Below are positions 31,494-47,868 of a stretch of 64,000 nucleotides of DNA, in pieces. Made by a program: the position numbers and the translations under genes. Every line of letters begins with the position of its first letter. The first letter of the stretch is position 1. The stretch lies in NCBI GenBank assembly GCA_945874895.1, contig CAMCIC010000006.1, forward strand, positions 62,001 through 126,000. The letters run 5' to 3'. A model generated the notes under the pieces. That model searched no databases. It was given only the letters and a program-made list of their open reading frames with translations, and was not told the DNA's origin. This DNA is from Akkermansia muciniphila. Lineage in GTDB: Bacteria; Verrucomicrobiota; Verrucomicrobiia; Verrucomicrobiales; Akkermansiaceae.

Positions 31494-33362
31494 ATGAAAA
31501 AGCCCGTCTATTTATTAGTGCCACTCGTGATTTTAGCCGGAATTGTCGCGTTTTTTCTATCGCATCAATCAGCGGATCCACAGCTGCGGAATAGCGGAGA
31601 AGAAGCGTCCGCCGTGAATATCGCCGAGACGAAAATCTCCGAGGCTGTCGTGGAGCGTCCTCGCTTGCAGGTCATCAACGGTAGCGATCAGGACGTGGAG
31701 ATCTTCTGGCTCAAGTCTGCAACCGAGCGCGTGGCCAATGGCGTGGTAAAATCCGGAGATGACACCATTTTCTCCACAAGTCTGGGGCATCGGTTTGAAA
31801 TCGTGGGGCGAGAAGATCACTCGAAAATGACCGTCACGAGCGAGGTTCCGGTGCAAGCGGTCCGCTTTGATCCCAAGGGTAGGGACGGCATTCCAGCATT
31901 TTACACGCAACACGTCAGTGCCAAGGGATTTCCGATTGTGGCTTCCGCCAAGGTCAGCCCTTTTGCACTCAAAGAGGCTGCGTATCTGGTAAACATGATG
32001 CTCGATAAGCGACCTGACGTGCGTGAGGCAATGATCAGGAGTGGTGCCCGCATGTGCGTCATGGCGCATGATGAATATACGACCGATTTGCCCGAGTTTC
32101 AGCGCATGGCGAAGGCTGAGGAAAGCGAAGTTCCTGGCGTGAGCGCTAAGGATTTCTGGGACGCGCGCGCGCGCGGATTGGGGGGCAGTGAGCACGATCC
32201 CCTCTGCTCGGTGGCCGAGGAAAACTTGCTGGCGCTATCAGGCGATCCCTATGAAAAGGAAAACATTCTCATTCACGAACTGGCCCATAACATCCACTTG
32301 CGAGGCCTGTTGAATGTGGACCCGACTTTCGATCGCCGACTTCGCGAAGCCTATGATTCCGCAATGAAGGCGGGACTCTGGAAGGGCAAGTATGCCTCCG
32401 TCAACAGTCGCGAATATTTTGCCGAAGGCGTGCAATCGTGGTTCGATGATAACCGCGTCAACGATCATGATCACAATCATGTGCACCTGCGATCTCAATT
32501 GATCGAGTATGACCCGGCACTGGCCGCACTGTGCCGTGAGGTTTTCGGCGATACCGAATTGAAATACACCAAGCCCACTACGCGATTGGTCGGGCACATG
32601 GAAGGTTATGATCCCAGCAAGGCCCCCGCATTTGAGTGGCCATCGCGATTGGACAAGGTCAAAGCCGCCATCCGCGAGTTGGCCGTGAGCCGCAATGCCA
32701 AAGCCCATGCCAGTGAAAAATATGAGGCGCGAACGATCGAAGGTTGGCCAGTGCTGATCAGTCGTGAGTTGTTAGAAAAACAGCCGGACGATATGGCAAA
32801 AGCTGCCCTGTTACTGCAGCGGCAGCTCGCGGAACTTCATCGCCTGTTACCGAGGGAGGTGGTGGCGAAACTTCAGCAGGTGCGGTTGTATTTCACCTCC
32901 GAGTATCACAACATCGCCCCGTCAGCCGAATACCATCCCGGAGCAGATTGGCTGAGGGCGAACCGCCGCGATCCTGATATGGTGAAAAACGTTGAGTTCA
33001 CCAACGCGCGCTTGTTTGAAGAGGAAATCCGCCGCATGCCACTGCTTGTTTTGCACGAGCTATCACACGCCTATCACGATCGGTTCTTGCCAGACGGTCA
33101 CAACAATGCGGAGATCAAGGAGGCTTTCGGAAAAGCGAAAGCAAGCGGATTGTATGAGCGAGTCGAACGCCGTGACGCAAGAGGAAATACCCGTATGGAT
33201 CGCGCCTATGCGATGACGAATCCTGCCGAATATTTTGCTGAAAGCACGGAAGCCTACTTCGGCACCAACGATTTTTTCCCCTACAACCAGGATGATCTGA
33301 AAAAGCACGATCCGTTTATGCACCAACTGTTGGCAAAACTGTGGGCTCTTCCTTCTCAGTAA
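31494..33362 (+). CDS. Membrane-anchored protein with VHL-like beta domain and two zincin metalloprotease domains
   Basis: The 622-residue product starts with a signal anchor (about 4-23). Residues about 57-125 resemble the von Hippel-Lindau beta domain (RLQVINGSDQDVEIFWL, a Gly/Asp turn, then STSLGHRFEIVG). Two related zinc-metalloprotease regions follow: the first with HELAH (His261, Glu262, His265) and a downstream YFAEG whose Glu311 could be the third ligand, the second with HELSH (His521, Glu522, His525) and YFAES with Glu583. Both have a long helix before the third ligand, as in gluzincins such as the lethal-factor-like family. Protein or peptide cleavage outside the cytoplasm is likely. 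A dipeptidyl peptidase and a prolidase-like gene follow closely. I know of no named protein with this exact architecture. Confidence 0.75.
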   Translation: MKKPVYLLVPLVILAGIVAFFLSHQSADPQLRNSGEEASAVNIAETKISEAVVERPRLQVINGSDQDVEIFWLKSATERVANGVVKSGDDTIFSTSLGHRFEIVGREDHSKMTVTSEVPVQAVRFDPKGRDGIPAFYTQHVSAKGFPIVASAKVSPFALKEAAYLVNMMLDKRPDVREAMIRSGARMCVMAHDEYTTDLPEFQRMAKAEESEVPGVSAKDFWDARARGLGGSEHDPLCSVAEENLLALSGDPYEKENILIHELAHNIHLRGLLNVDPTFDRRLREAYDSAMKAGLWKGKYASVNSREYFAEGVQSWFDDNRVNDHDHNHVHLRSQLIEYDPALAALCREVFGDTELKYTKPTTRLVGHMEGYDPSKAPAFEWPSRLDKVKAAIRELAVSRNAKAHASEKYEARTIEGWPVLISRELLEKQPDDMAKAALLLQRQLAELHRLLPREVVAKLQQVRLYFTSEYHNIAPSAEYHPGADWLRANRRDPDMVKNVEFTNARLFEEEIRRMPLLVLHELSHAYHDRFLPDGHNNAEIKEAFGKAKASGLYERVERRDARGNTRMDRAYAMTNPAEYFAESTEAYFGTNDFFPYNQDDLKKHDPFMHQLLAKLWALPSQ

Positions 33363-33384: not shown

Positions 33385-35694
33385 ATGAGTATGTCCCTCT
33401 CCCAAAGTATGAATGCATCTTCCGCTCCCCGTCCATTTGCCTCAGCATCAGTAGGCGGCGTCTCTGGGCTTGATGAATCCTCTGGAGCCGAACCACGATC
33501 GGCCTATCTGACCGTCGAGCGGATCTTTGGCGAGAAAAGCGAGTTTAAGACTCAGAAGTGGGGGCCGGCGTATTGGCTCAAGGATGGAACAGGCTACACC
33601 ACCTTAGAAAAATCAGCCGCGTTCGATGACGACGAGGTGAGAGATTTGGTGTGCTACGATCCCGCTACGGGAGTGCGCGAAGTCATGATTGCTGCGGCAA
33701 ACCTCATTCCCCCGGGGCAGACGAAACCTTTGATCATTGAGAATTATGCCATCTCTCGGGATGGAACCCGGATGCTGGTGTTTGTCAACGCTGTCCGAGT
33801 CTGGCGTGAAAAGACCCGTGGCGATTATTGGCTGTTAGAGAGGGCAACCGGAGCACTCACCCAACTCGGTGGTGATGCTGATCCCGCGATGATGATGTTT
33901 GCCACTTTTTCTCCCGACGACCAGAACGTTGCCTATGTGTATCGCAACAATCTTTTTGTCCAATCATTGCATTCCGGTGAAATCACCCAACTCACGCAAG
34001 ATGGAAACGAACACGTGATCAACGGCACGGCTGACTGGGTGAATGAGGAGGAATTCCATTTGCGTCACGGTTTTCGCTGGAGTCCCGATAGCCGCATGAT
34101 TGCTTATTGGCAGTTCGATACCGTCGGCGTGAAGGAGTTTCCTTTGGTCAATTACATCGATACCACCTATCCGAAGATGCAACACATCGCCTACCCGAAA
34201 GTGGGCGAGATGAATTCCGCCTGCCGGCTGGGAGTGGTGAACGCGAGTGGCGGCGAGACGAAATGGATCAGATCCCATTCCGATCCGCGCAATCATTACA
34301 TTCCGCGCATGGAGTGGGCGAGCGATTCACGACACGTTTTTTTCCAGCAACTCAATCGCTTACAAAATATCAACCAAGTGATGGCGGCTGATCCACAGAC
34401 CGGACTGGCGGAAGTGATATTTACCGATTCCGATGATGCCTGGGTTGATGTCATGAATGAATGGATCTGGATCGATGGCGGTTCACGTTTTCTGTGGCTC
34501 AGTGATCGTGATGGATGGCGGCATCTGTATGCCGTTTCTGTTCATGATCTATCAGTGAAACGGCTTACTCCGGGAGAATTCGATGTGATCCATGTGGCCG
34601 GAGTGGATGAGAAAAACGGCTGGGTGTATTTCACGGCATCGCCTGATCATCCAACGCAACGACACCTTTATCGGACGAGTCTCGACGGATCCGGCGCCAT
34701 CTGCCAGATCAATCCAGCTGGGCAGCGCGGCACGCACTCCTATCAATTTTCGGCGGATGCCCAATGGGCATTCCATACTTACTCGAGCTTTGGCTGCCCG
34801 CCCATCGTCGAGCTGATCCGCCTGCCCGATCACCAGGTGAAGCAGGTGATGGTGACAAACGAGACCTTGCGAGAGAAGTTGCAGCACTTGAAGCTAGGAT
34901 CGCGTGAAATGTTCCAGGTCGATCTCGGCGGCGGACTGTCGGCGGATGCATGGTGCATCAAACCGCCGAATTTTGATGAGACGCGGAAGTATCCTCTGTT
35001 CCTTCATGTATATGGCGAACCCGCTGGCAGCACGGTGCTCGACACGTGGGGTGGCGACAATGATCTTTGGCACTCGATGATGGCGCAGCAGGGGTATGTG
35101 GTGATGAGCATCGACAACCGTGGCACGCCCATGCCGCGAGGCCGTGCCTGGCGCAAGAGCGTTTATCGAAAAATCGGCATGATCGCCCCTGTGGATCAAG
35201 CTCATGCGACGCGTGAGATTCTGCGCACTCGCCCTTATCTGGATGCTTCTCGCGTCGGAATTTGGGGCTGGAGTGGCGGAGGATCCATGAGTCTCAACGC
35301 CATTTTTCGTTATCCCGATCTCTATCACACCGCCATGGCCATTGCCTTCGTAGCTCATCAGCGGATGTATGACACCATCTATCAGGAACGCTACATGGGA
35401 TTGCCCGATGACAATGAGGAGGGATTTCGCGATGGATCACCCATCACTCATGCCCATAGATTGCAAGGAAATCTGCTGCTGGTTTATGGCACAGGCGATG
35501 ACAATTGCCATTACCAGAATTGTGAGCTTTTGGTGCACGAGTTGATCAAGCAGAACAAGTATTTCTCCCAGGTCGTCTATCCTAACCGTTCCCATTCGAT
35601 CGAAGAGGGACCGAATACCCGTTGCCATCTCTATGGCACTCTGACACGATACTTGCTCGATCATCTGCCTTCCCATTCGATTTCTCAAAGCTAA
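33385..35694 (+). CDS. Dipeptidyl peptidase IV-like serine peptidase (S9B)
   Basis: The 769-residue enzyme has an N-terminal beta-propeller (DPPIV_N, about 60-500) and a C-terminal alpha/beta hydrolase domain. The catalytic triad is visible: Ser630 in GWSGGGSMS, Asp705 in GTGDDNCHYQN and His737 in PNRSHSIEEG. A double-Glu EE motif at NEEEFHLRHGF in the propeller matches the S9B signature that binds the substrate amino terminus. Such enzymes release X-Pro dipeptides. No obvious signal peptide is seen, so location is unclear. AAGG at 33379-33382 would fit the Met codon at 33391 better than the ATG at 33385. The M24 gene begins 6 bp downstream. Confidence 0.93.
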   Translation: MSMSLSQSMNASSAPRPFASASVGGVSGLDESSGAEPRSAYLTVERIFGEKSEFKTQKWGPAYWLKDGTGYTTLEKSAAFDDDEVRDLVCYDPATGVREVMIAAANLIPPGQTKPLIIENYAISRDGTRMLVFVNAVRVWREKTRGDYWLLERATGALTQLGGDADPAMMMFATFSPDDQNVAYVYRNNLFVQSLHSGEITQLTQDGNEHVINGTADWVNEEEFHLRHGFRWSPDSRMIAYWQFDTVGVKEFPLVNYIDTTYPKMQHIAYPKVGEMNSACRLGVVNASGGETKWIRSHSDPRNHYIPRMEWASDSRHVFFQQLNRLQNINQVMAADPQTGLAEVIFTDSDDAWVDVMNEWIWIDGGSRFLWLSDRDGWRHLYAVSVHDLSVKRLTPGEFDVIHVAGVDEKNGWVYFTASPDHPTQRHLYRTSLDGSGAICQINPAGQRGTHSYQFSADAQWAFHTYSSFGCPPIVELIRLPDHQVKQVMVTNETLREKLQHLKLGSREMFQVDLGGGLSADAWCIKPPNFDETRKYPLFLHVYGEPAGSTVLDTWGGDNDLWHSMMAQQGYVVMSIDNRGTPMPRGRAWRKSVYRKIGMIAPVDQAHATREILRTRPYLDASRVGIWGWSGGGSMSLNAIFRYPDLYHTAMAIAFVAHQRMYDTIYQERYMGLPDDNEEGFRDGSPITHAHRLQGNLLLVYGTGDDNCHYQNCELLVHELIKQNKYFSQVVYPNRSHSIEEGPNTRCHLYGTLTRYLLDHLPSHSISQS

Positions 35695-35700
35695 TTCAAC

Positions 35701-36876
35701 ATGTCACTGGCATCCGCATCATCGAAGGTGGTCGCACGCATTGCGGCCGGAGTTCCTGGGGTTCACAGCAGCCTATTTTGGCGCATTCGCTTCGCCGTAG
35801 GTGATCAAGTGGTTCTGTTAGAAATTCCGAACGGGGAAAAGACCGAGTCTACACTTCTCCTCCGTGACATTGAAATGGAGCGCGCCAAACAGTATGCCCG
35901 CGTCGATCACGTCGGTTGTCCACCCATGTTCGCGCCCGAAGGCGGACTGTCTGGCGACCGTGAAACGGCCAACGCGCAAGCCGCGATCGAGTTTCTACGC
36001 CGTGCGGGTGTGACGCATGTGTATGGCGATAGAACTTTGCCCCTGATTTTCGCCGATTTTGCCCGCAAGGCCGGCATTGCCATCGAGTGCGATGTCGATA
36101 TGTGGGTGAATGAAAGACGTCAGAAATCCGAAGAAGAAATCGAACATCTGCGTGAGGCGCAACGCGTGACTGAGGGGGCGATCCAGTTGGCCTGTGAACT
36201 CATTGCACGTGCCGATGTCCGCGCCGATGGTGTGCTTTTGCATCAGGGCGTGGTCTTGACTTCGGAACGAGTGCGCACCGCGGTGGACCATTGGCTGCTC
36301 GATCAAGGATTCTCTAATCCCAAGGCCATCATCGCCGGCGGCCCCATGGCATCGGATTGTCACAATTACGGAACCGGTGAACTTCGTACTAGCGAGCCCG
36401 TGATCGTTGATATCTTTCCCTGCGACCGCAGGTCCCGCTACAATGGCGACTGCACACGCACAGTGGTGAACGGAGAGATTCCCGATGAGGTCATGCGCAT
36501 GCATGCCGCCGTGCGAGCTGCAAAAGCCGCTGCGGAAGCAAAAATCCGCGCCGGCGTCACGGGGGAAGATGTCCATTTCGCCACCATTGCCGCTTTGTCC
36601 GATCACGGATACCCCTTTGGTCTTCCGTCTGATGACACACCATGGTCTTACTGCGCCATGACTCATGGCACGGGGCATGGAATCGGACTCGATGTGCATG
36701 AACCTCCCTTGCTGGATCGCAAAGGTCCGCCTTTGCTCAAAGGCGAGGCGCTCACCGTCGAACCCGGACTTTACCGCCGCGATCTCGGCGCTGTGCGCAT
36801 TGAGGATATGGTCATTGTCACCGAGAATGGTTGCCTCAACCTCAATCAACTGCATGACGGACTGAGTTGGAAATAA
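35701..36876 (+). CDS. M24-family Xaa-Pro aminopeptidase/dipeptidase
   Basis: The 391-residue cytoplasmic metallopeptidase has the creatinase-like N-terminal domain and the pita-bread catalytic domain. The dinuclear metal site is readable: Asp in VDIFP, Asp in GDCTRT, His in THGTGHGIGLDVHE, Glu in VEPGLY and Glu in VRIEDM. Family members cleave Xaa-Pro bonds, complementing the dipeptidyl peptidase encoded 6 bp upstream, so the two probably work together on proline-containing peptides. No signal peptide is present. Confidence 0.9.
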   Translation: MSLASASSKVVARIAAGVPGVHSSLFWRIRFAVGDQVVLLEIPNGEKTESTLLLRDIEMERAKQYARVDHVGCPPMFAPEGGLSGDRETANAQAAIEFLRRAGVTHVYGDRTLPLIFADFARKAGIAIECDVDMWVNERRQKSEEEIEHLREAQRVTEGAIQLACELIARADVRADGVLLHQGVVLTSERVRTAVDHWLLDQGFSNPKAIIAGGPMASDCHNYGTGELRTSEPVIVDIFPCDRRSRYNGDCTRTVVNGEIPDEVMRMHAAVRAAKAAAEAKIRAGVTGEDVHFATIAALSDHGYPFGLPSDDTPWSYCAMTHGTGHGIGLDVHEPPLLDRKGPPLLKGEALTVEPGLYRRDLGAVRIEDMVIVTENGCLNLNQLHDGLSWK

Positions 36877-37835: not shown

Positions 37836-39392
37836 ATGAAAACCTTATTTCTCGCTTTCAGTCTCGCGCCGGCCGCTCTCTTGGCCGACCTCGCGGTGCC
37901 TCACTTTTTCTCTGATCACATGATCCTTCAGCGGGATCGAGCTGCCGCGATCTGGGGGAAAGCGGATCCCCATGCTGAGGTGACCGTCTCGTTCAAAGGA
38001 AAAAAAGTTCATGCCAAAGCTGCGGCTGATGGCAAGTGGCGGACGAATATCGAGACGGGCCAAGCTGATGCCTCAGGAGCCATCCTGACCATCAGTTCTG
38101 CAGGAAAAAACATCGCCATTCAGGATGTGCTTGTGGGTGAAGTCTGGTTCGCCTCAGGGCAATCCAACATGTCTTTCACCATGAGCGGCAGCCCCATGTA
38201 TCAGCCGCTGGTCGAGGCATCCACGGATCCTGCCTTGCGCATGTTCACCGCCCCCCGCATCGCAACGCTCGAAGCCATGGAGGATATCGATGGTTCCTGG
38301 CAATCGGCGGACCCCAAAAATGTTCCGCGCTTTTCCGCCGTGGCATATTTTTTTGCGCGAAAACTGCGACAGGAACTGGGCGTCCCTGTTGGCGTGATTC
38401 ATAGTTCCTGGGGTGGCAAGCCGATCGAAACATTTACCAGTCGTGAGGCGTTGAACACTCTGCCTGCGACCAAAAAACTCGTCGAGACGGCCATCAAGGA
38501 CGATGCGGCGTTTGATCGGAATCAAGCAAAAGTAAACTATGAAAAGCAACTCGCGCAATGGGAGGCGGCGATGGCATCGGCAAAACAAAAGCCGGCTGCC
38601 GAACGTGGTCGGTTGCCTGTGAAGCCAGTGATGGGACGGCGTGCGCTGGCCACCGATGGCAAACCGGGCGTGCTGTTCAACTCGATGATTCATCCATTTA
38701 TCGGTTACACCATGCGTGGTGCGATTTGGTATCAAGGTGAGGCGAACCGGAACGCAACATCAGCACCCTACGAGCAGACTTTGCCCTTGATGATCGCGGA
38801 CTGGCGCAAGCGCTGGAATGATTCGTTTTCCTTTTACTACGTTCAGTTGGCCAATTTTGGCAAGCCGACCACCGAGCCAGGTGGAGAAGATGGCTGGGTA
38901 AACGTCCAAGACGCGATGCGTCGCGTTCTGCAGAAGGTGCCTCAAACGGGAATGGCTGTGATCAATGAAGTGGGGGAGGCGGGCGACATTCATCCGAAAA
39001 ACAAAAAGGATCCCGGAGAACGTCTCGCATTGTGGGCTTTGGCCAAGGACTACGGCAAACAACTCGTTTATTCAGGTCCTCTCTATCAGAAACACGAGAT
39101 GATGAAGGATGTCGTCCGCATTACTTTTGCCCACGCGGGAAATGGTTTGAAAACCCGTGGCCCAGAGCCATTGGCAAGATTCGAAATCTGTGGCGCGGAT
39201 GGGAAATGGCATTGGGCTCAAGCGAAAATCTCAGGCAAGGACTCGATTGACGTTAGCTGCAAAGATGTGAGCAAACCCGTCGCCGTGCGCTACGCTTGGG
39301 CGGCTAATCCCGAGGGAGCCAACTTGATCAACAGCGAAGGTTTGCCTGCATCGGTTTTCACGACACAGCCTACAAAAAAAGATGAATCATGA
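37836..39392 (+). CDS. Secreted sialate O-acetylesterase-type carbohydrate esterase
   Basis: The start at 37836 gives a signal peptide (MKTLFLAFSLAPAALLA). The 518-residue protein follows the SASA family plan: an N-terminal beta domain (FFSDHMILQRD), then an SGNH-fold esterase with Ser110 in FASGQSNMSF, the SSWGGKPIE block, IWYQGEAN, and a late GDIHPKNKKDPGERLA block containing the catalytic Asp-His. These enzymes remove acetyl groups from sialic acids or other acetylated glycans. The stop overlaps the following sulfatase start (ATGA), so deacetylation and desulfation of the same polymer is plausible. Confidence 0.93.
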   Translation: MKTLFLAFSLAPAALLADLAVPHFFSDHMILQRDRAAAIWGKADPHAEVTVSFKGKKVHAKAAADGKWRTNIETGQADASGAILTISSAGKNIAIQDVLVGEVWFASGQSNMSFTMSGSPMYQPLVEASTDPALRMFTAPRIATLEAMEDIDGSWQSADPKNVPRFSAVAYFFARKLRQELGVPVGVIHSSWGGKPIETFTSREALNTLPATKKLVETAIKDDAAFDRNQAKVNYEKQLAQWEAAMASAKQKPAAERGRLPVKPVMGRRALATDGKPGVLFNSMIHPFIGYTMRGAIWYQGEANRNATSAPYEQTLPLMIADWRKRWNDSFSFYYVQLANFGKPTTEPGGEDGWVNVQDAMRRVLQKVPQTGMAVINEVGEAGDIHPKNKKDPGERLALWALAKDYGKQLVYSGPLYQKHEMMKDVVRITFAHAGNGLKTRGPEPLARFEICGADGKWHWAQAKISGKDSIDVSCKDVSKPVAVRYAWAANPEGANLINSEGLPASVFTTQPTKKDES

Positions 39393-40894
39393 AAAACGTG
39401 CCATCATGGTTGCTTGTTCTGTTCGCAACTGCAGGGGGCATCATCGCATTTGCGGAGGAAAAGCCGAGGCCGAACATCTTGTTCATCGCCATCGATGATC
39501 AGAATGATTGGGTCGGTCACATGGGCGGTCATTCCTTGGTGAAGACACCGCATCTCGATCGACTGGCCGCACGTGGCACCAGCTTTCTCAATGCACATTG
39601 CCAGTCCCCCTTATGCAATCCATCGCGCACCAGTCTTCTCTTCGGCCGCCGCGCCACATCCACGGGCATTTATGGACTGGCGCCCTTGCCGCGTGATTTG
39701 CCCCTGTTGCGCGATGCCATTTCGTTGCCACAGCATTTTGCTGCGCAGGGTTATCGCACCTATGCCAGCGGGAAGATTTTTCACAGCGGAACCAACGCAG
39801 GTTCTGGGAAAAAAGCTGCTCGGGAGTTTCAGGTGACGGCCGCTCTCGGGGGAGTCGGTTCGATGCCTCCAAAAAAATTGGTGGGAGAAACCCCGATGGG
39901 TAACAATCGTCTCGTCGATTGGGGGGTGTGGCCGCTCGACGATGACGATACATCCAAAGGCGATGATAAGGTGGCGTCATGGACCGTGGAGCAGATCAAA
40001 TCCGCGCCGAGGGATCAGCCTTTTTTCATCGCTGCCGGATTTTTTCTTCCGCATGTGCCCTGTTACGCCACGCAGAAGTGGTTTGATCTATATCCCGATG
40101 ACGACAGCGTTTTGCCGAAGATTGAGGAGTCTGATCGCGATGACACTCCGCGTTTTTCCTGGTATCTTCACTGGTCGCTGCCGGAACCGCGGTTGGCATG
40201 GCTCAAAGAGAAAAATCAATGGCGTAACCTTGTCCGCAGCTATCTCGCTTGTACGAGTTTTGTTGACTCACAGGTAGGTCGTCTCATGACTGCCTTGGAG
40301 GAAGCTGATCTAACAGAAAATACGATTGTGGTTGTCTGGAGTGATCACGGTTGGCATCTAGGCGAGAAAGGCATCAGTGGCAAAAATACCTTATGGGAGC
40401 GCAGCACCAGAGTGCCCCTTATCTTTGCTGGTCCCGGCGTCAAAGGGGGGCAGCGCTGCACTCAACCCGCTGAGTTGCTGGATTTGTATCCGACTCTGAT
40501 CGAGCTTGCTGGTTTGCCACCCAAGCAGGATCTCGAGGGCTTGAGTCTGATGCCTCAGCTCAAGGAGGTAACGACGAAACGCCTTCGTCCGGCTATCACG
40601 AGCCATAATCAGGGAAATCACGCCATCCGCAGCGAACGCTGGCGCTACATTCGATATGCCGATGCCAGCGAGGAGCTTTACGATATGATCGCGGATCCCC
40701 ACGAATGGAACAATCTCGCGGCCAAGCCCGAGCATGCCGCCGTGATTGCCGAGCACAAAAAATGGTTGCCGCGGCCAGATTTGCCACTGGCTGCGAAAAG
40801 TGCCGCTCGCATTCTCACATACGACCCGAAAACCGATACGGCGACGTGGGAAGCCAAGACAACCATCCGACGCAGTGATCCTCTTCCTCCATGA
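39389..40894 (+). CDS. Secreted type I sulfatase (iduronate/choline-sulfatase-like)
   Basis: The 501-residue protein has a signal peptide (to about residue 22) and a sulfatase domain. Its metal-binding start reads IAIDDQND, a form typical of the iduronate-2-sulfatase branch; the formylglycine motif is CNPSR (Cys76), followed by SDHGWHLGEKG. It overlaps both neighbours by 4 bp, so it is the middle gene of a tightly coupled esterase-sulfatase-sulfatase operon. Substrate not determinable from sequence. Confidence 0.92.
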   Translation: MKNVPSWLLVLFATAGGIIAFAEEKPRPNILFIAIDDQNDWVGHMGGHSLVKTPHLDRLAARGTSFLNAHCQSPLCNPSRTSLLFGRRATSTGIYGLAPLPRDLPLLRDAISLPQHFAAQGYRTYASGKIFHSGTNAGSGKKAAREFQVTAALGGVGSMPPKKLVGETPMGNNRLVDWGVWPLDDDDTSKGDDKVASWTVEQIKSAPRDQPFFIAAGFFLPHVPCYATQKWFDLYPDDDSVLPKIEESDRDDTPRFSWYLHWSLPEPRLAWLKEKNQWRNLVRSYLACTSFVDSQVGRLMTALEEADLTENTIVVVWSDHGWHLGEKGISGKNTLWERSTRVPLIFAGPGVKGGQRCTQPAELLDLYPTLIELAGLPPKQDLEGLSLMPQLKEVTTKRLRPAITSHNQGNHAIRSERWRYIRYADASEELYDMIADPHEWNNLAAKPEHAAVIAEHKKWLPRPDLPLAAKSAARILTYDPKTDTATWEAKTTIRRSDPLPP

Positions 40895-43125
40895 AACATC
40901 TCATCCTCTTTCTCCTTAGTTTTTACGCGGCTCACGCTGCAACGAAGCCGAACCTTCTTTTGGTCATGGTCGATGATCTGGGATTTTCCGATTTAGGTTG
41001 TTACGGTAGCGAAATTGACACACCGAATCTCGATCGTCTTGCGGCCAACGGCTTGCGGATGACGCAGTTTTACAACACGGCGAAGTGCCATTCCTCGCGG
41101 GTGTCTCTGCTTACAGGGCGCTGGTGCCGTCAAGCTGGCGATGAAAGCATGAAGCGCGCAGTCACCATTCCGGAAGTGTTGGCTCCGGCAGGGTATTTCA
41201 CGGCGATGACAGGAAAATGGCATCTCGATCAACAGCCCACGGACTTCGGTTTTCAGCGTTACTTCGGCCACCTCTCGGGTGTGACAAATTATTATTGGGG
41301 TGACAAAACATTCAGACTCAACGGTCAGCCGTGGACCGTGCCTGACCATGGATTTTACACCACTACCGCCAACGTTGATCAGGCGATCCGATTTCTCGGC
41401 GAGGCCCGTGCGGAAAAGAAGCCCTGGTTTCTCTATATTGCCTTCAATGCACCTCATGCGCCGCTGCAACCCTTGGAAGCGGATTACAAAAAATACCTCG
41501 GTCGCTATGACGTCGGATGGGACACCATTCGCTCGACTCGTGTGGCAAAACAAAAGTCCATCGGATTGCTGCCCCAGGACCTTCCCGTTTCGCCAAGACC
41601 CGATCACATCCGGCCTTGGGACATGCTCAGCCCCGAGCAGCGCGATTGGGAATCAAAGCGCATGGCTGCCTACGCGGCGCTCATCGATCGCGTTGACCAA
41701 GAGCTCGGGCGCCTCATTGTCGATCTCCAAACGTCCCGAGAGTTGGATAACACCCTGATTCTTTTTGTGTCAGACAACGGCGCATGTCCCTACGACCGTG
41801 CAAACGTTCATACGGACAAAGAGCCGTATGATCCCGAAACGCATTGGACCGATAGCACCGGTTGGGCATGGGCCCGCAATGCTCCTTTCCGTTATTACAA
41901 ACAGAATCAGTTCGAGGGCGGAATTTCCTCACCGGCCATTCTCCACTGGCCCGCAGGATTGAAAACCAAAGCGGGCTCGATCGTGGATGGTCCCGCACAT
42001 CTGGTCGATGTCCTTCCCAGCTTTGCTGCGGTTGCCGCTGCCGCGATCCCCAACGAATTTTCGGGTCGCGATCTTACTCCTCTCGCAGGCTGCTCTCTGG
42101 CGCCGATGCTCGCGGGGGAGAAGCTCACGAAGCGCCCACCCATTCACCTGCTCTATGGAAGTGACCGCGGACTTCGTGATGGAGAGTGGAAAATCGTGAG
42201 TTTCCAAAGCCAACCGTGGGAGCTCTATCACATTCCTAGCGACCGTGCGGAGACCCGCAATGTTGCCGCGCGGTATCCGGATATCGTAGAACGCATGGTG
42301 AAAACATGGCATGCGATGACCAAGGATGTTCTGATGTCACCCGCTGCTGAAAACAAGCCTGCTGCGGCGGAAGCCACTGAGAAAATCCATCGCGAATGGA
42401 CAAAATACGACAAGATCGTTTCCTCTACGAAAAACAAACAAGTTGGAGAACTGAAGCCTTTCACACCTGCCACCGACTTAGCAGGAGATTGGGCGATGAA
42501 GCCTGATCCATTATTGCCGAACGTGCTGATCCTCGGTGATTCCATTTCGATTGCCTACACTCGTGATGTTCGCGCTTTGATGAAAGATACGGCGAACGTC
42601 TATCGTCCCATGTCGGCAAATCAAAAAAATCCCGCGAACTGCGGGGATACTACGATCGGTCTTGCGAATATAGATGCCTGGCTTGCGGGAAAAAAGTGGG
42701 ACGTCATTCATTTCAATTGGGGACTTTGGGACTTGTGTTACCGAAATCCCGCATCCAAAGCTCAGGGCAACCGCGATAAGTTGAATGGTAAGGTTTCCAC
42801 GCCGCCCGATGTCTATCGCCGCAATCTCGAAACACTGGTGGGGAAACTCAAGGCGACGGGTGCAAGATTGGTCTGGGCCAGCACCACGCTCGTGCCCGAT
42901 GGTGAGGTAGGACGATGCGTGGGCGACGATGTCAAGTACAACGCAATCGCCGCCGAGGTCATGAAACAACATGACATCCGCATCGACGACCTCTTTGCTG
43001 CAAGCAGGAAGTTTGAATCCAGTATGTTTGTCAAACCGGGTGATGTGCATTTCACTCCCGAGGCTTCCCGCATTCTTGCCACGCAAGTGGCGCAACATCT
43101 CACAGAGTTGTTAGGGAAAAAATGA
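40891..43125 (+). CDS. Secreted sulfatase fused to an SGNH hydrolase domain
   Basis: The 744-residue product has a signal peptide (to about residue 17), an N-terminal sulfatase domain (about 19-470) and a C-terminal SGNH domain (about 545-744). In the sulfatase half the metal start is VMVDDLGFSDLGCYG and the expected formylglycine motif reads CHSSR (Cys66), with Ser replacing the usual Pro. In the SGNH half the GDSI block carries Ser551, FNWGLWDL is the likely block III, and GDVHFTPEASR holds Asp718 and His720. One polypeptide could therefore remove both sulfate and an acyl group from a glycan. It ends the operon; a regulator gene lies convergent 39 bp further on. Confidence 0.88.
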   Translation: MKHLILFLLSFYAAHAATKPNLLLVMVDDLGFSDLGCYGSEIDTPNLDRLAANGLRMTQFYNTAKCHSSRVSLLTGRWCRQAGDESMKRAVTIPEVLAPAGYFTAMTGKWHLDQQPTDFGFQRYFGHLSGVTNYYWGDKTFRLNGQPWTVPDHGFYTTTANVDQAIRFLGEARAEKKPWFLYIAFNAPHAPLQPLEADYKKYLGRYDVGWDTIRSTRVAKQKSIGLLPQDLPVSPRPDHIRPWDMLSPEQRDWESKRMAAYAALIDRVDQELGRLIVDLQTSRELDNTLILFVSDNGACPYDRANVHTDKEPYDPETHWTDSTGWAWARNAPFRYYKQNQFEGGISSPAILHWPAGLKTKAGSIVDGPAHLVDVLPSFAAVAAAAIPNEFSGRDLTPLAGCSLAPMLAGEKLTKRPPIHLLYGSDRGLRDGEWKIVSFQSQPWELYHIPSDRAETRNVAARYPDIVERMVKTWHAMTKDVLMSPAAENKPAAAEATEKIHREWTKYDKIVSSTKNKQVGELKPFTPATDLAGDWAMKPDPLLPNVLILGDSISIAYTRDVRALMKDTANVYRPMSANQKNPANCGDTTIGLANIDAWLAGKKWDVIHFNWGLWDLCYRNPASKAQGNRDKLNGKVSTPPDVYRRNLETLVGKLKATGARLVWASTTLVPDGEVGRCVGDDVKYNAIAAEVMKQHDIRIDDLFAASRKFESSMFVKPGDVHFTPEASRILATQVAQHLTELLGKK

Positions 43126-44563: not shown

Positions 44564-47122
44564 TCAAAGATTCCGCTCCGTAAGGATCCGAATTTGCAAG
44601 GGTTTGCCGATCTGAATGCTTCCATTGGCATCGCGCGGAGGTGCTATTTCCACGATGAACTCGCGCATCCGGCGGCCGAGGATGGCGCCGTTTTTTCCGA
44701 GTGCTTGACCTGTGACCACGATACGGAATGTTTTGCTTTGGAAACTAACGAGTGGAATCACGCGTTGCATCAGTTCCTCGCGCCCTGCGTCATCCCATGT
44801 ATTACCTGGTTGGTTGGCAATGGGATACTGCAGTGGGCTGCCGAAAAATGGATCGGTGTCCGCCGCTGGATTGCTGTAATTCCTTGGAGATGAAGGATTT
44901 TTTCGGATCATGTTGAGATCGGATAGTCCGCGCAGTGGCGCGCGATTGCGGCTTGCTATGACGGCATCGGCAAAACGATCCCCCACGATCGATTCCTTCG
45001 GCGCATACATCAGCCCCTGCTGGGGGTCATTGTTCAGCGCCTGAGCGGCGACCAGAGTGCGGAGCACTTCACGCGGAGCGGTATTCAGGTTCACGCGCGA
45101 CGTGGGGGGGAGCACACTGGCTGGAGTCAGCGTGAAAAGATCCATCAACTGAGCGGCGCGCTGGCCATCGCGATCGAACACCGCGTATTCGGGGCGCCCG
45201 ATCGCGAGAGTAAAACCACCCCCCGCGTTGGCGGATGGAGTGCCAAATGTTTCAACGGCAGTCCATTGGGAAGGGTCAAACACGTTGCCCATTTCCGCCA
45301 GCGACAACATCGGGCGATTGGCGATGTAGGCAGGAGCCATGTTGGGCTGGTTGCTGGGCAGAGCCAATGCGGTCGGAAGTCGTGAGTCAGATCCGGCCAC
45401 TGTTCCTGTGACCGACTCAGGCCCGCGATCGGGCCAGCGGGTGATGCGCACTTCCCGATAGTTTGTATTCGATATCGAAGGTTTCAAAGCGCGGCCACCC
45501 CAATTACTATTGACATCGTAGTTGTTCGCAAAGATCCAAGTATTGATGTAATAAGAAGCACGCGGGTCTCCGTGTTGTCCTATGCTGTGATCATGAGCGG
45601 GTGAAGCATTCCCCTTCCATTTGGCTTGATTCGCTCCTGCTCCCAGAGTTCCCGAGGTGCGCTGTGCATTGCCACGGGCCCAATCAATCAATATCCCGTT
45701 CCAGCGGAGGCGATAGCTGCTAGTGGTGGTAGTGGAGGAGAAATTGAGCGTGCTGGGTGGAAAGGCACCGACAGGAAATGTGTATTCTCGAGATCCGCAC
45801 AAGCGCACTGCGAAACCATTGGCTGGCAAGGAGAGTGCCTCGGGAGGGAAAGTGACTGCCGTAAAGTTTTGCACGCCCACCAGTGGAATGGTGATGCTGT
45901 GAAGATTGATGTTTTCCAGTTGATACGTGCCGTTGACGCTTTGATTGCTGGGATTCCACAGCTCGACATAGGTTGTCACACGGATCGTGAGGGAGCTGGC
46001 CGTGCTACCAGTCCATTCGTAGCGATCGAAGATTTCATTGACAAAAGGATAGCTGTCCACACCCCGATAACCCGTGCCGACGGTGGCATCGCCATCGGGA
46101 TCGGCGTAGTCGATGATACTAGCCGCGATGGTTTTTGAGTAGTTTTCTCCTGTGGGGAATCCACCTTTGCGAGCCTCGAACAAGGGGAGGTTGCGAGTGA
46201 TGTGGCTCGCAATGCCATCAACATTTTTTTGTTGGATGAGTTCCGTCAGATTTTTTGCCGGTTGTCCTGCGTCTGCATATCCGAACCCATGCGGAATGAG
46301 CGGCGTGAAACGAGAGTTTTTCGGCAATTGATAGGTGATGTAGGGTTCGATTTTCGCTGCTTCGGTTTCTCCGATGAGTGGGCGAATGCTGGCTGCGCTG
46401 CGCAGTTTGTCCCTTCGGGCGATGAGAGAGTCGTGAGGACCGGCGGTGACGGTGTCAGAGTTTGGCTTAAAAATCGTGTAGTATTGAATTTCTCGCGGTG
46501 AGAGTCCTTGATTGCGGGGTTCTGCCCCCGCGTTTGCGCCATCGATGCGCCCCCTCAGATCTTCGACCCACCAGGCATAGCGGGTGGTGTAGGTAGAGTC
46601 GGGAGAGGAGACATCGATCCAGGCGCCACGGGGAACCTGACGGTCGTAATGGCCCAAAGAAATCAGCTGTTCGGTCGAAAAGTTGCGGAGTTGGTTGCTG
46701 ATGGCCGCCCCGTCGATCTGTGAAGCCCCGCCGGAGATTTCGCGCAATCCACTGACGAAGGGAAGCACGCGCCAGAGCTTACGAGTCGTATCGTATTGGG
46801 CGCCGAAGGTGAAAAATTGCTCGCGTGAAGGCTGGCTCGTGGAGGCGGGAATGAGTGGAGAGAAGGGGTCGTCGATGCGAAAGACCAGAGTGTCATCACG
46901 TCCGGCCACGGGGCTGATGGTGGCGATGGCATCGGCGAGACCGCTTTGCACTGCCATATCGGCGCGAGTGGCATCGGAATACGAACGTGCGGTTTTTCGT
47001 TCAAGTGTTAGCAAGCCGAGCAAGCTCATGAGCAAGAGCAGCATGCCGGCGATGGCCATGATCGTCATGGGCAAAGCGAATCCTCGCAGGTGCAGATGGG
47101 AGTTTGTGGTGGCGTTGGTCAT
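44564..47122 (-). CDS. Verru_Chthon cassette protein A-like (PilX/GspK-type)
   Basis: The ATG at 47122 overlaps the previous stop (TGATG); a start at 47206 would lie inside that gene. The 852-residue product begins with a short basic leader and a prepilin-like RGFALPMTIMAIAGMLLLLMSL helix that lacks the usual Glu at +5, as in PilX/GspK minor pseudopilins. A long Ser/Thr/Asn-rich extracytoplasmic region follows. The arrangement with three small pseudopilin genes matches the cassette defined from Verrucomicrobium spinosum and Chthoniobacter flavus (protein A, TIGR02600, from memory). Function of the cassette is unknown; a tip complex of a pilus-like secretion device is a reasonable guess. Confidence 0.8.
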   Translation of the reverse strand: MTNATTNSHLHLRGFALPMTIMAIAGMLLLLMSLLGLLTLERKTARSYSDATRADMAVQSGLADAIATISPVAGRDDTLVFRIDDPFSPLIPASTSQPSREQFFTFGAQYDTTRKLWRVLPFVSGLREISGGASQIDGAAISNQLRNFSTEQLISLGHYDRQVPRGAWIDVSSPDSTYTTRYAWWVEDLRGRIDGANAGAEPRNQGLSPREIQYYTIFKPNSDTVTAGPHDSLIARRDKLRSAASIRPLIGETEAAKIEPYITYQLPKNSRFTPLIPHGFGYADAGQPAKNLTELIQQKNVDGIASHITRNLPLFEARKGGFPTGENYSKTIAASIIDYADPDGDATVGTGYRGVDSYPFVNEIFDRYEWTGSTASSLTIRVTTYVELWNPSNQSVNGTYQLENINLHSITIPLVGVQNFTAVTFPPEALSLPANGFAVRLCGSREYTFPVGAFPPSTLNFSSTTTTSSYRLRWNGILIDWARGNAQRTSGTLGAGANQAKWKGNASPAHDHSIGQHGDPRASYYINTWIFANNYDVNSNWGGRALKPSISNTNYREVRITRWPDRGPESVTGTVAGSDSRLPTALALPSNQPNMAPAYIANRPMLSLAEMGNVFDPSQWTAVETFGTPSANAGGGFTLAIGRPEYAVFDRDGQRAAQLMDLFTLTPASVLPPTSRVNLNTAPREVLRTLVAAQALNNDPQQGLMYAPKESIVGDRFADAVIASRNRAPLRGLSDLNMIRKNPSSPRNYSNPAADTDPFFGSPLQYPIANQPGNTWDDAGREELMQRVIPLVSFQSKTFRIVVTGQALGKNGAILGRRMREFIVEIAPPRDANGSIQIGKPLQIRILTERNL

Positions 47123-47868
47123 CAGGGGTTCAGAACGATGCGGTGAACATGACGTTTTACGGCCTCCCGTTGCTTGAGATCCGTGCTGCGGGATAAGGCG
47201 AGCCATTGGCTTTCAGTGTTCAGCCGTTGGGCGGTGAAGTCATCGATGAGATCGAGCGTGATCTCGATGCGTTCGGGAGTCGTTTCCAACTGCGGGTTCC
47301 AGGTTTGCCAGTTGCCTTTGGCATCGCGTTGCTGACCGATGACCTGGAAGTTGAGGATGTTGTAGGCGATGGGATCATCGGTAGCGGGATCATACGAAGG
47401 AAAAGGAGCGGTTTGTCCTCCGTCCAGCAGTTGTTGGGTGGCGGCACCACTGAGAGTGCGGCGAAACAATTTAGGCGACGAGCTATTGCGATCATCAGCG
47501 GAGAATGAGATGTAATACACACATGCCATCAGATCGCCGGTGGCATTGCTTTCTTGGGAATCACGCGTGCGGATGAAGCAGAATTCCGATTGTTGGGCAG
47601 GATTCGTTCGTAGAAAAAAGCGAGTGCCTTCCAAACGAGAGGAAAGATCGTTATCCATGAAGTGGAAAAGCGATCGCAGATCGGCGAGAGTGGTGACCTT
47701 GCGCTGGGAAATGCGGTAATTGGTGCTGGATTGACCCACTAAGCTGAAAAGTGCGATCATGAGCATCGACGTCACCGCCATGGCGGTGAGCAATTCCACC
47801 AAGGAAAACCCCGCGATCCAGAGGGGCGAACGCGGCGACTTTGACTTTGGTGGGAGAGAAAGCTTCAT
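47122..47868 (-). CDS. Verru_Chthon cassette protein C-like pseudopilin
   Basis: The 248-residue product has a basic leader and a type IV prepilin motif: GFSLVELL (cleavage after Gly20, Glu at +5) with a hydrophobic helix, then a globular beta-rich domain. It resembles GspJ-sized minor pseudopilins and corresponds to cassette protein C by size and order. The start overlaps the cassette B stop by 4 bp (ATGA) and its stop overlaps cassette A's start by one base. Confidence 0.8.
   Translation of the reverse strand: MKLSLPPKSKSPRSPLWIAGFSLVELLTAMAVTSMLMIALFSLVGQSSTNYRISQRKVTTLADLRSLFHFMDNDLSSRLEGTRFFLRTNPAQQSEFCFIRTRDSQESNATGDLMACVYYISFSADDRNSSSPKLFRRTLSGAATQQLLDGGQTAPFPSYDPATDDPIAYNILNFQVIGQQRDAKGNWQTWNPQLETTPERIEITLDLIDDFTAQRLNTESQWLALSRSTDLKQREAVKRHVHRIVLNP

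Follow-up and report, generated by a model that had tools for sequence, protein, structure and literature searches.

Why would a bacterium place a von Hippel-Lindau (VHL) domain in front of two zinc-metalloprotease domains? VHL is the hydroxyproline (Hyp) reader of animal oxygen sensing. The question is raised by a 622-amino-acid (aa) protein encoded in a 64,000-nucleotide stretch of Akkermansia muciniphila DNA (GenBank assembly GCA_945874895.1, contig CAMCIC010000006.1, positions 62,001 to 126,000 of the forward strand), to which we refer as the window. Residues 53-129 of this protein are a homologue of the VHL beta domain, and they precede two related domains, M1 and M2, of which M1 is closest in its modelled fold to the Pro-Pro endopeptidases (PPEPs). 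We propose that the protein may be an exported endopeptidase of proline- and Hyp-rich proteins in which the VHL-like domain serves as the substrate-binding module.

Homology to the VHL beta domain

The VHL homology is nearly certain, although the domain is not a member of the family at the level of Pfam. The Pfam VHL model (PF01847) is unmatched by the protein even at E <= 10, so that the protein stays below its gathering cut-off, and a search of the whole genome with this model yielded 0 matches, as did control genomes. A profile (A1) of the window family's VHL regions, built from 46 of 50 distinct rows that combine VHL and M1 (L032, L045, L048 and L065 were left out and L001 was replaced by the window sequence), gave no VHL match when searched directly against PDB sequences (best E 0.14). 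Among the relatives' regions Pfam VHL appeared weakly in 7 of 46 (best E 0.011) and was still the commonest of the 12 families seen. Of 387 genomes sampled from the phylum, 20 do contain Pfam VHL above its cut-off, and a second profile was built from 19 of these 20 bacterial domains (A4; L111, whose domain lies near the chain end, was left out). Comparison of A1 with A4 by hhalign gave a probability of 98.1%, an E of 6.5e-14 and a score of 75.5, against 12.5 for reversed A4 and 22.1 for the best of 100 column shuffles. A4 in turn retrieves human VHL at E 2e-13, with VHL accounting for 24 of its 26 matches, and A1 searched over 117 genomes of the family also retrieves proteins in which VHL is fused to dipeptidyl peptidase IV (VHL-DPPIV), for example at E 3.6e-8 in genome G021.

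Structure prediction agrees. The AlphaFold2 model of residues 54-130 alone has a predicted local distance difference test (pLDDT) score of 94.8, and among the matches listed VHL chains make up 50 of 50 by Foldseek (best E 1.9e-4) and 50 of 50 by VIA (Z 9.4-10.9 over 75-77 residues, root-mean-square deviation (rmsd) 2.1-2.5 A); with the whole model, ranks 2-50 of the Foldseek matches listed are VHL chains. The first-pass annotation, which had read a VHL-like beta domain before two related HExxH domains and had pointed to structure prediction and Foldseek among the means of checking it, is thus borne out. A chance beta sandwich was considered and rejected on the shuffle and reversal controls and on the fold searches with the domain alone. 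In the AlphaFold2 model of the whole protein (mean pLDDT 86.3, predicted template modelling score 0.68), the chain reads as a hydrophobic segment, a low-confidence linker, the beta domain, M1 and M2, with pLDDT below 50 for residues 1-51.

The resemblance to pVHL, the human substrate receptor of the CUL2 E3 ligase, covers the beta-domain fold over VHL residues 70-156 and three of five pocket residues that are identical or conservatively replaced (Trp, Ser to Thr, His). Unlike pVHL, the window protein is fused to protease domains, lies below Pfam detection, has a hydrophobic N-terminus suggesting export and carries Asn for Tyr98 and Phe for Trp117. The VHL alpha (elongin C-binding) domain is absent from it: the match ends at VHL residues 154-156 and the protease domain starts there. 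The protein is therefore not a pVHL-type E3 receptor, and a functional tie to a ubiquitin ligase is not supported. Bacteria are not known to have the elongin or cullin partners.

Most of the VHL domains sampled elsewhere in Verrucomicrobiota belong to a different architecture. The 20 VHL loci represent one per genome from 26 places over the cut-off, the other six having been left out, and 19 of the 20 are fused to DPPIV_N and/or Peptidase_S9. The remaining one (L163, L101:1435-1815) encodes a protein of 127 aa in which the VHL domain stands alone behind a hydrophobic N-terminus. The VHL-DPPIV proteins of Verrucomicrobiota (VHL, DPPIV_N and Peptidase_S9) resemble the window protein in carrying a homologous domain and a peptidase in one chain in the same phylum, and differ from it in that the peptidase is of the serine prolyl type and not a pair of zinc domains, the pocket is nearly complete and some of the genes lie among Hyp-catabolism genes.

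Tandem metalloprotease domains M1 and M2

The two halves of the protease part align with each other at E 1e-6 by sequence and, profile to profile, with a probability of 97.9% (E 4.8e-13). Each contains an HExxH motif, HELAH in M1 and HELSH in M2, and a downstream YFAE (residues 308-311 and 580-583). The whole protein passes the Pfam cut-offs of both ATLF (34.7 bits versus 27.4; M1 alone 17.1, M2 alone 21.7) and Peptidase_M90 (33.7 bits versus 26.2; M1 alone 17.0, M2 alone 21.7). Rank 1 of the whole-model Foldseek search is PPEP-3 (E 3.8e-5), and VIA matches M1 to PPEP-1/2/3 at Z 12.8-14.5, within residues 127-354, and to anthrax lethal factor at Z 10.8-12.3. By sequence, the M1 profile found nine PDB matches, all of them PPEP-1 at a non-significant E of 0.098-0.15, and the M2 profile found two weak ones, the first (E 0.47) a putative metal-dependent hydrolase and the second (E 0.72) Mlc titration factor A. 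An NCBIfam scan of the 622-aa protein gave 0 families at E <= 1, phmmer with the whole protein against PDB matched one protein alone (E about 0.2), and a structure search against viral proteins gave two matches at E <= 0.001, both with an rmsd above 20 A. The predicted relationship to PPEPs is thus one of fold and motif only, with the fold shared by M1 and the motif by both M1 and M2. The earlier view that the architecture belongs to no named family stands for the combination, for which no name was found, and fails for the protease part, given the ATLF and Peptidase_M90 matches and the PPEP-like fold of M1.

The active site of PPEP-3 consists of His153, Glu154, His157, Tyr190 and, as third ligand, Glu197, i.e., Tyr-x6-Glu (excerpt of PMC12828418). 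Y300-x6-E307 of M1 and Y572-x6-E579 of M2 have the same spacing and are invariant in the aligned rows, which makes E307 and E579, each located four residues N-terminal to the YFAE glutamate, the more likely third zinc ligands. The YFAE glutamates E311 and E583, which the first-pass annotation had offered as candidate ligands, were rejected as first choice because of this spacing; they are conserved in 29 of 31 M1 and 14 of 14 M2 sequences, respectively. None of the five predicted catalytic residues (His, Glu, His, Tyr, Glu) varies among the 31 aligned M1 or the 14 aligned M2 sequences, and judged from these motifs both zinc sites very probably work. The motif NDHDHNHV is near-invariant in M1 and missing from M2; the model is less certain there, and the motif may form an extra metal or substrate site. 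In alignment A3, the input of the model, four M2-only fragments show 23-27% identity to the query versus 49-54% in BLAST and are probably aligned to M1.

Besides fold, M1 shares HExxH and Tyr-x6-Glu with PPEP-1/2/3 (the Zmp1 group), whereas identity is only 14-17% and PPEPs have a single protease domain in place of the tandem with a VHL domain. Anthrax lethal factor likewise has two ATLF-type domains per chain, one of which is inactive. In the window protein, by contrast, both zinc motifs are complete, identity to lethal factor is 10-15%, and a VHL domain takes the place of its other domains. MtfA, a single-domain cytosolic regulator of Mlc, shares the whole-protein Peptidase_M90 match and differs from the window protein, which is a tandem with a hydrophobic N-terminus.

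Among the 97 related genomes searched, 60 contain matches, and 66 loci come from the genome collection; the named ones are mostly metagenome-assembled genomes of Verrucomicrobiota and Planctomycetota. According to the BLAST table of the 66 loci, VHL, M1 and M2 share one frame in 13, VHL and M1 occur without M2 in 27, and in five M2 precedes M1 and no VHL part matches, L071 and L072 being the same protein. This reversed order was seen in L021, L023, L070, L071, L072, L076 and L089, a sign of domain shuffling within the family. Relatives L012, L022 and L027 have in-frame stops and look like degraded genes. Fusions found by Pfam scanning include DUF885 (L034), sulfatase (L051), SASA acetylesterase (L052) and DUF6797 (L073, L074). 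The fused M1 is accompanied by VHL and M2 in some cases only, and these proteins may help to explain what DUF885 and DUF6797 do.

The hydroxyproline pocket and hydroxyproline-catabolism genes

The hydroxyproline site of human VHL consists of Trp88, Tyr98, His110, Ser111, His115 and Trp117, of which Ser111 and His115 bind the hydroxyl group (excerpt of PMC9528729), and the pocket residues are described as almost invariably conserved across vertebrates and invertebrates (excerpt of PMC6650433). In the window protein the equivalents are W72 (Trp88), N82 (Tyr98), T95 (Ser111), H99 (His115) and F101 (Trp117). The pocket is nearly complete in the 19 domains of A4 (18 DPPIV fusions and one free protein), which have Trp in 19, Tyr in 19, Thr or Ser in 19, His in 19 and Trp in 18 at the respective positions; of the six A4 columns conserved at >=90%, four are pocket positions (P 5e-5). 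Across the 46 rows of the window family, Trp is found in 39, Thr in 39, His in 38 and Phe or Tyr in 46, while the position of Tyr98 is Asn in 31. In the 39 rows that remain when one clade without the pocket is set aside, W72, T95 and F101 never vary and H99 is kept in 38. That the domain of the window protein itself binds Hyp is a tentative suggestion from sequence, which we doubt somewhat more than we believe because of N82 and F101.

The trans-4-hydroxy-L-proline pathway comprises an epimerase (HypE), an oxidase of the D-amino-acid-oxidase type (DAO), a DHDPS-type deaminase and an aldehyde dehydrogenase (excerpt of PMC4113996). Genes resembling this pathway surround VHL-DPPIV in four of 21 regions (19 from the phylum draw plus L179 and L182 from the family draw); the four come from three bacterial families (f1 twice, f9 and f4). 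The gene orders are DAO, HypE, DHDPS, aldehyde dehydrogenase, VHL-DPPIV in L165; VHL-DPPIV, DHDPS, HypE, DAO in L169; DHDPS, HypE, VHL-DPPIV, DAO in L172; and DAO, HypE, M1, DHDPS, aldehyde dehydrogenase, VHL-DPPIV in L179. HypE of L158 (see below), L165 (G033) and L179, and DAO and aldehyde dehydrogenase of L179, were named by Pfam or NCBIfam, and the remaining assignments, including DHDPS everywhere except in L158, by BLAST. The M1 metalloprotease gene of L179 is the immediate neighbour of the epimerase gene and shares its strand, and M1 genes without VHL neighbour HypE in L029, L179, L180 and L181.

In the phylum draw HypE is present in 3 of 19 VHL-DPPIV regions versus 0.07 expected (P 5e-5, or 4e-4 if there are two copies per genome), an expectation that uses rounded genome sizes and regions some of which end at contig ends. 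In the family draw HypE lies within 10 kb of 2 of 5 VHL-DPPIV genes versus 0 of 78 other DPPIV genes (Fisher 0.003). For this test the HypE set was 71 of 85 rows, 14 weaker paralogues having been left out, and 83 of 84 rows (one short fragment left out) and 50 rows at E <= 1e-90 were also taken; one non-VHL DPPIV gene (G043:C112) adjoins a weaker HypE paralogue, which if counted makes 1 of 78. The family draws were assumed to be the same 117 genomes from their equal parameters, counts and handles. Among 20 neighbourhoods of VHL+M1 genes, none holds HypE; DAO is directly upstream in L189 and aldehyde dehydrogenase next door in L204. The genome of the window carries HypE-like, DHDPS-family, amine oxidase and sulfatase genes close together on a contig other than that of the window (L158, G000:C4:135000-149000), and the best NCBIfam model for its HypE-like gene is 4-hydroxyproline epimerase (409.7 bits, versus 222.8 for the proline racemase model).

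Within the window (Table 1), the protease gene is followed at a distance of 22 bases by a DPPIV gene and this, after 6 bases, by an M24 gene, so that the dipeptidyl peptidase and prolidase genes first noted downstream are indeed there; the order protease-DPPIV-M24 is also kept in two relatives, L031 and L032. A search of the 2.9 Mb genome with the 622-aa protein matched only the protein itself. Elsewhere in the window, an 880-aa open reading frame at 44564-47206 on the minus strand has no Pfam match at E 1e-5.

Table 1. Features of the protease gene and its neighbours, in window coordinates.
Feature	Position	Strand	Basis
Whole gene, VHL-like domain and two PPEP/M34-like metalloprotease domains, 622 aa	31494..33362	+	Open reading frame, relatives, model
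Hydrophobic N-terminal segment, aa 1-26, interpreted as a signal peptide or a membrane anchor	31494..31571	+	Sequence only
VHL-like beta domain, aa 53-129	31650..31880	+	Profile comparison, fold searches, pocket alignment
First metalloprotease domain M1, aa 130-400, modelled fold of PPEP type	31881..32693	+	Fold searches; alone below Pfam cut-off
HELAH zinc motif of M1, aa 261-265	32274..32288	+	H261, E262, H265 invariant in 31/31 aligned
Predicted oxyanion tyrosine (Y300) and third zinc ligand (E307) of M1, spacing Tyr-x6-Glu	32391..32414	+	PPEP-3 spacing, conservation
NDHDHNHV motif of M1, aa 323-330	32460..32483	+	Near-invariant in aligned relatives
Second metalloprotease domain M2, aa 405-620	32706..33353	+	Half-to-half alignment, model, profiles
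HELSH zinc motif of M2, aa 521-525	33054..33068	+	H521, E522, H525 invariant in 14/14 aligned
Predicted oxyanion tyrosine (Y572) and third zinc ligand (E579) of M2, spacing Tyr-x6-Glu	33207..33230	+	PPEP-3 spacing, conservation
Dipeptidyl peptidase IV family gene (DPPIV_N and Peptidase_S9), no VHL domain found	33385..35694	+	Pfam
M24 metallopeptidase, prolidase/aminopeptidase P type	35701..36876	+	Pfam, NCBIfam
Two sulfatase genes, the second with GDSL-type domain	39389..43125	+	Pfam; downstream, same strand

Proposed function and alternatives

We propose that the protein, predicted from its hydrophobic N-terminus to be exported and probably membrane-anchored, may attack extracellular glycoproteins that are rich in proline, partly hydroxylated and perhaps also sulfated; algal or plant hydroxyproline-rich glycoproteins would be a first guess for these and collagen a possibility. 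The VHL-homologous beta domain would hold stretches of Pro and Hyp, as carbohydrate-binding modules serve glycanases, and the zinc domains M1 and M2 of the PPEP type would cut the chain, in what may be a division of labour. The DPPIV and M24 enzymes encoded downstream could then trim X-Pro pieces, and free hydroxyproline could pass to the 4-hydroxyproline-epimerase-like enzyme, whose gene lies elsewhere in the genome. Enzymes of the DPPIV and prolidase kinds would be expected to accept Hyp. Computed support for the proposal consists of the domain identities, the intact catalytic motifs, the order of the genes and the fact that some sister VHL-DPPIV and M1 genes are linked to genes for Hyp catabolism. 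We consider it an even question whether the protein is a protease for proline- or hydroxyproline-rich substrates, and the reading as a whole, an exported endopeptidase of Pro/Hyp-rich proteins with VHL as its substrate-binding module, is in our judgment equally balanced between right and wrong. The suggestion in the first-pass annotation that a targeting domain is coupled to proteolysis is a sound one.

Several observations weigh against the proposal. The pocket of the window protein is incomplete, with Tyr98 replaced by Asn and Trp117 by Phe, and one clade of seven planctomycete sequences (L062, L063, L064, L067, L069, L087 and L088) has kept the VHL-like domain and lost the pocket except for the aromatic residue; other planctomycete relatives, such as L056, retain it. 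In the VHL-sulfatase sequences the position of His115 was read by eye as Ala in 5 of 7. HypE is found in 0 of the 20 VHL+M1 neighbourhoods and in 0 of 6 VHL-sulfatase regions. The co-occurrence of VHL and HypE (32 of 33 VHL genomes versus 70 of 117 overall) is confounded by lineage and carries no kinship correction. The HypE of the window's own genome lies on another contig and scores under the 450-bit cut-off of its model, which 0 of the 117 family-draw genomes exceed. Adjacency of the full-length gene to DPPIV is confined to three closely related genomes, and M1 and M2 singly stay below the Pfam cut-offs. Finally, no Pro-Pro cleavage was detected for PPEP-like CD1597, and fold relatives differ in specificity (excerpts of PMC11460543 and PMC12828418).

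The VHL-like domain could instead be a glycan- or glycoprotein-binding module of a protein that clips heavily glycosylated (sulfated, mucin-like or algal) proteins, with no role for Hyp. VHL-type domains also occur on sulfatases, C-terminal to the enzyme in L149, L150, L152, L153, L155, L156 and L157 (Pfam VHL E <= 0.001 in 4 of 7; the frame of L155 holds the C-terminal sulfatase part alone). A relative of the window sulfatase at 39389-40894 is present in 16 of 96 loci with relatives, and a sulfatase relative in 8 of 20 VHL+M1 regions. In addition, M1 is itself fused to a sulfatase or an acetylesterase in L051 and L052, and the pocket Tyr and Trp are replaced in the window subfamily. Such a module is harder to reconcile with the near-complete retention of W72, T95, F101 and H99 outside the pocket-less clade and with the position of some sister domains among Hyp-catabolism genes, and we regard it as rather unlikely. 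The same residues bear on the idea that the VHL-like part is a ligand-free structural or pro-domain and that M1 and M2 alone set the specificity of what would be a general peptidase of the M34/M90 type, secreted or periplasmic: the retention of W72 and T95 in 39 of 46 rows and of H99 in 38 seems to exceed what a scaffold alone would require. M1 does occur in many relatives that lack a matching VHL part (e.g., L070-L084 and L090-L094), and the planctomycete clade described above keeps the domain without the pocket; we nevertheless think this explanation improbable.

A regulatory or sensory peptidase of the MtfA/M90 kind, not involved in nutrient degradation, appears highly improbable to us. Pfam M90 scores as well as ATLF (33.7 versus 34.7 bits) and Mlc titration factor A is among the two weak PDB matches of the M2 profile, but the hydrophobic N-terminus, the operon-like run with DPPIV and M24, the sulfatases nearby and the PPEP-like fold of M1 all point elsewhere.

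The metalloprotease and VHL domains are each of known kinds. Our searches of the open-licence literature led to work on PPEPs, hydroxyproline epimerase, the VHL pocket and algal-polysaccharide sulfatases; they found no paper on bacterial VHL domains, neither their combination with a metalloprotease nor a bacterial VHL as an enzyme module tied to Hyp catabolism. It is conceivable, though we lean towards doubting it, that the domain is an old bacterial Hyp-binding module that Verrucomicrobiota attached to exported prolyl peptidases, Pro-Pro-type metalloproteases and sulfatases to eat Hyp-rich glycoproteins, and that its use in animal oxygen sensing represents re-use or shared descent. The bacterial relatives of VHL keep the same pocket, nearly complete in VHL-DPPIV and partial in the window protein, on proline-directed peptidases. 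If binding is confirmed, they would provide a candidate function of bacterial VHL with the same ligand as in animals, suggest a mechanism for the bacterial breakdown of hydroxyproline-rich proteins and offer new Hyp-binding domains as tools.

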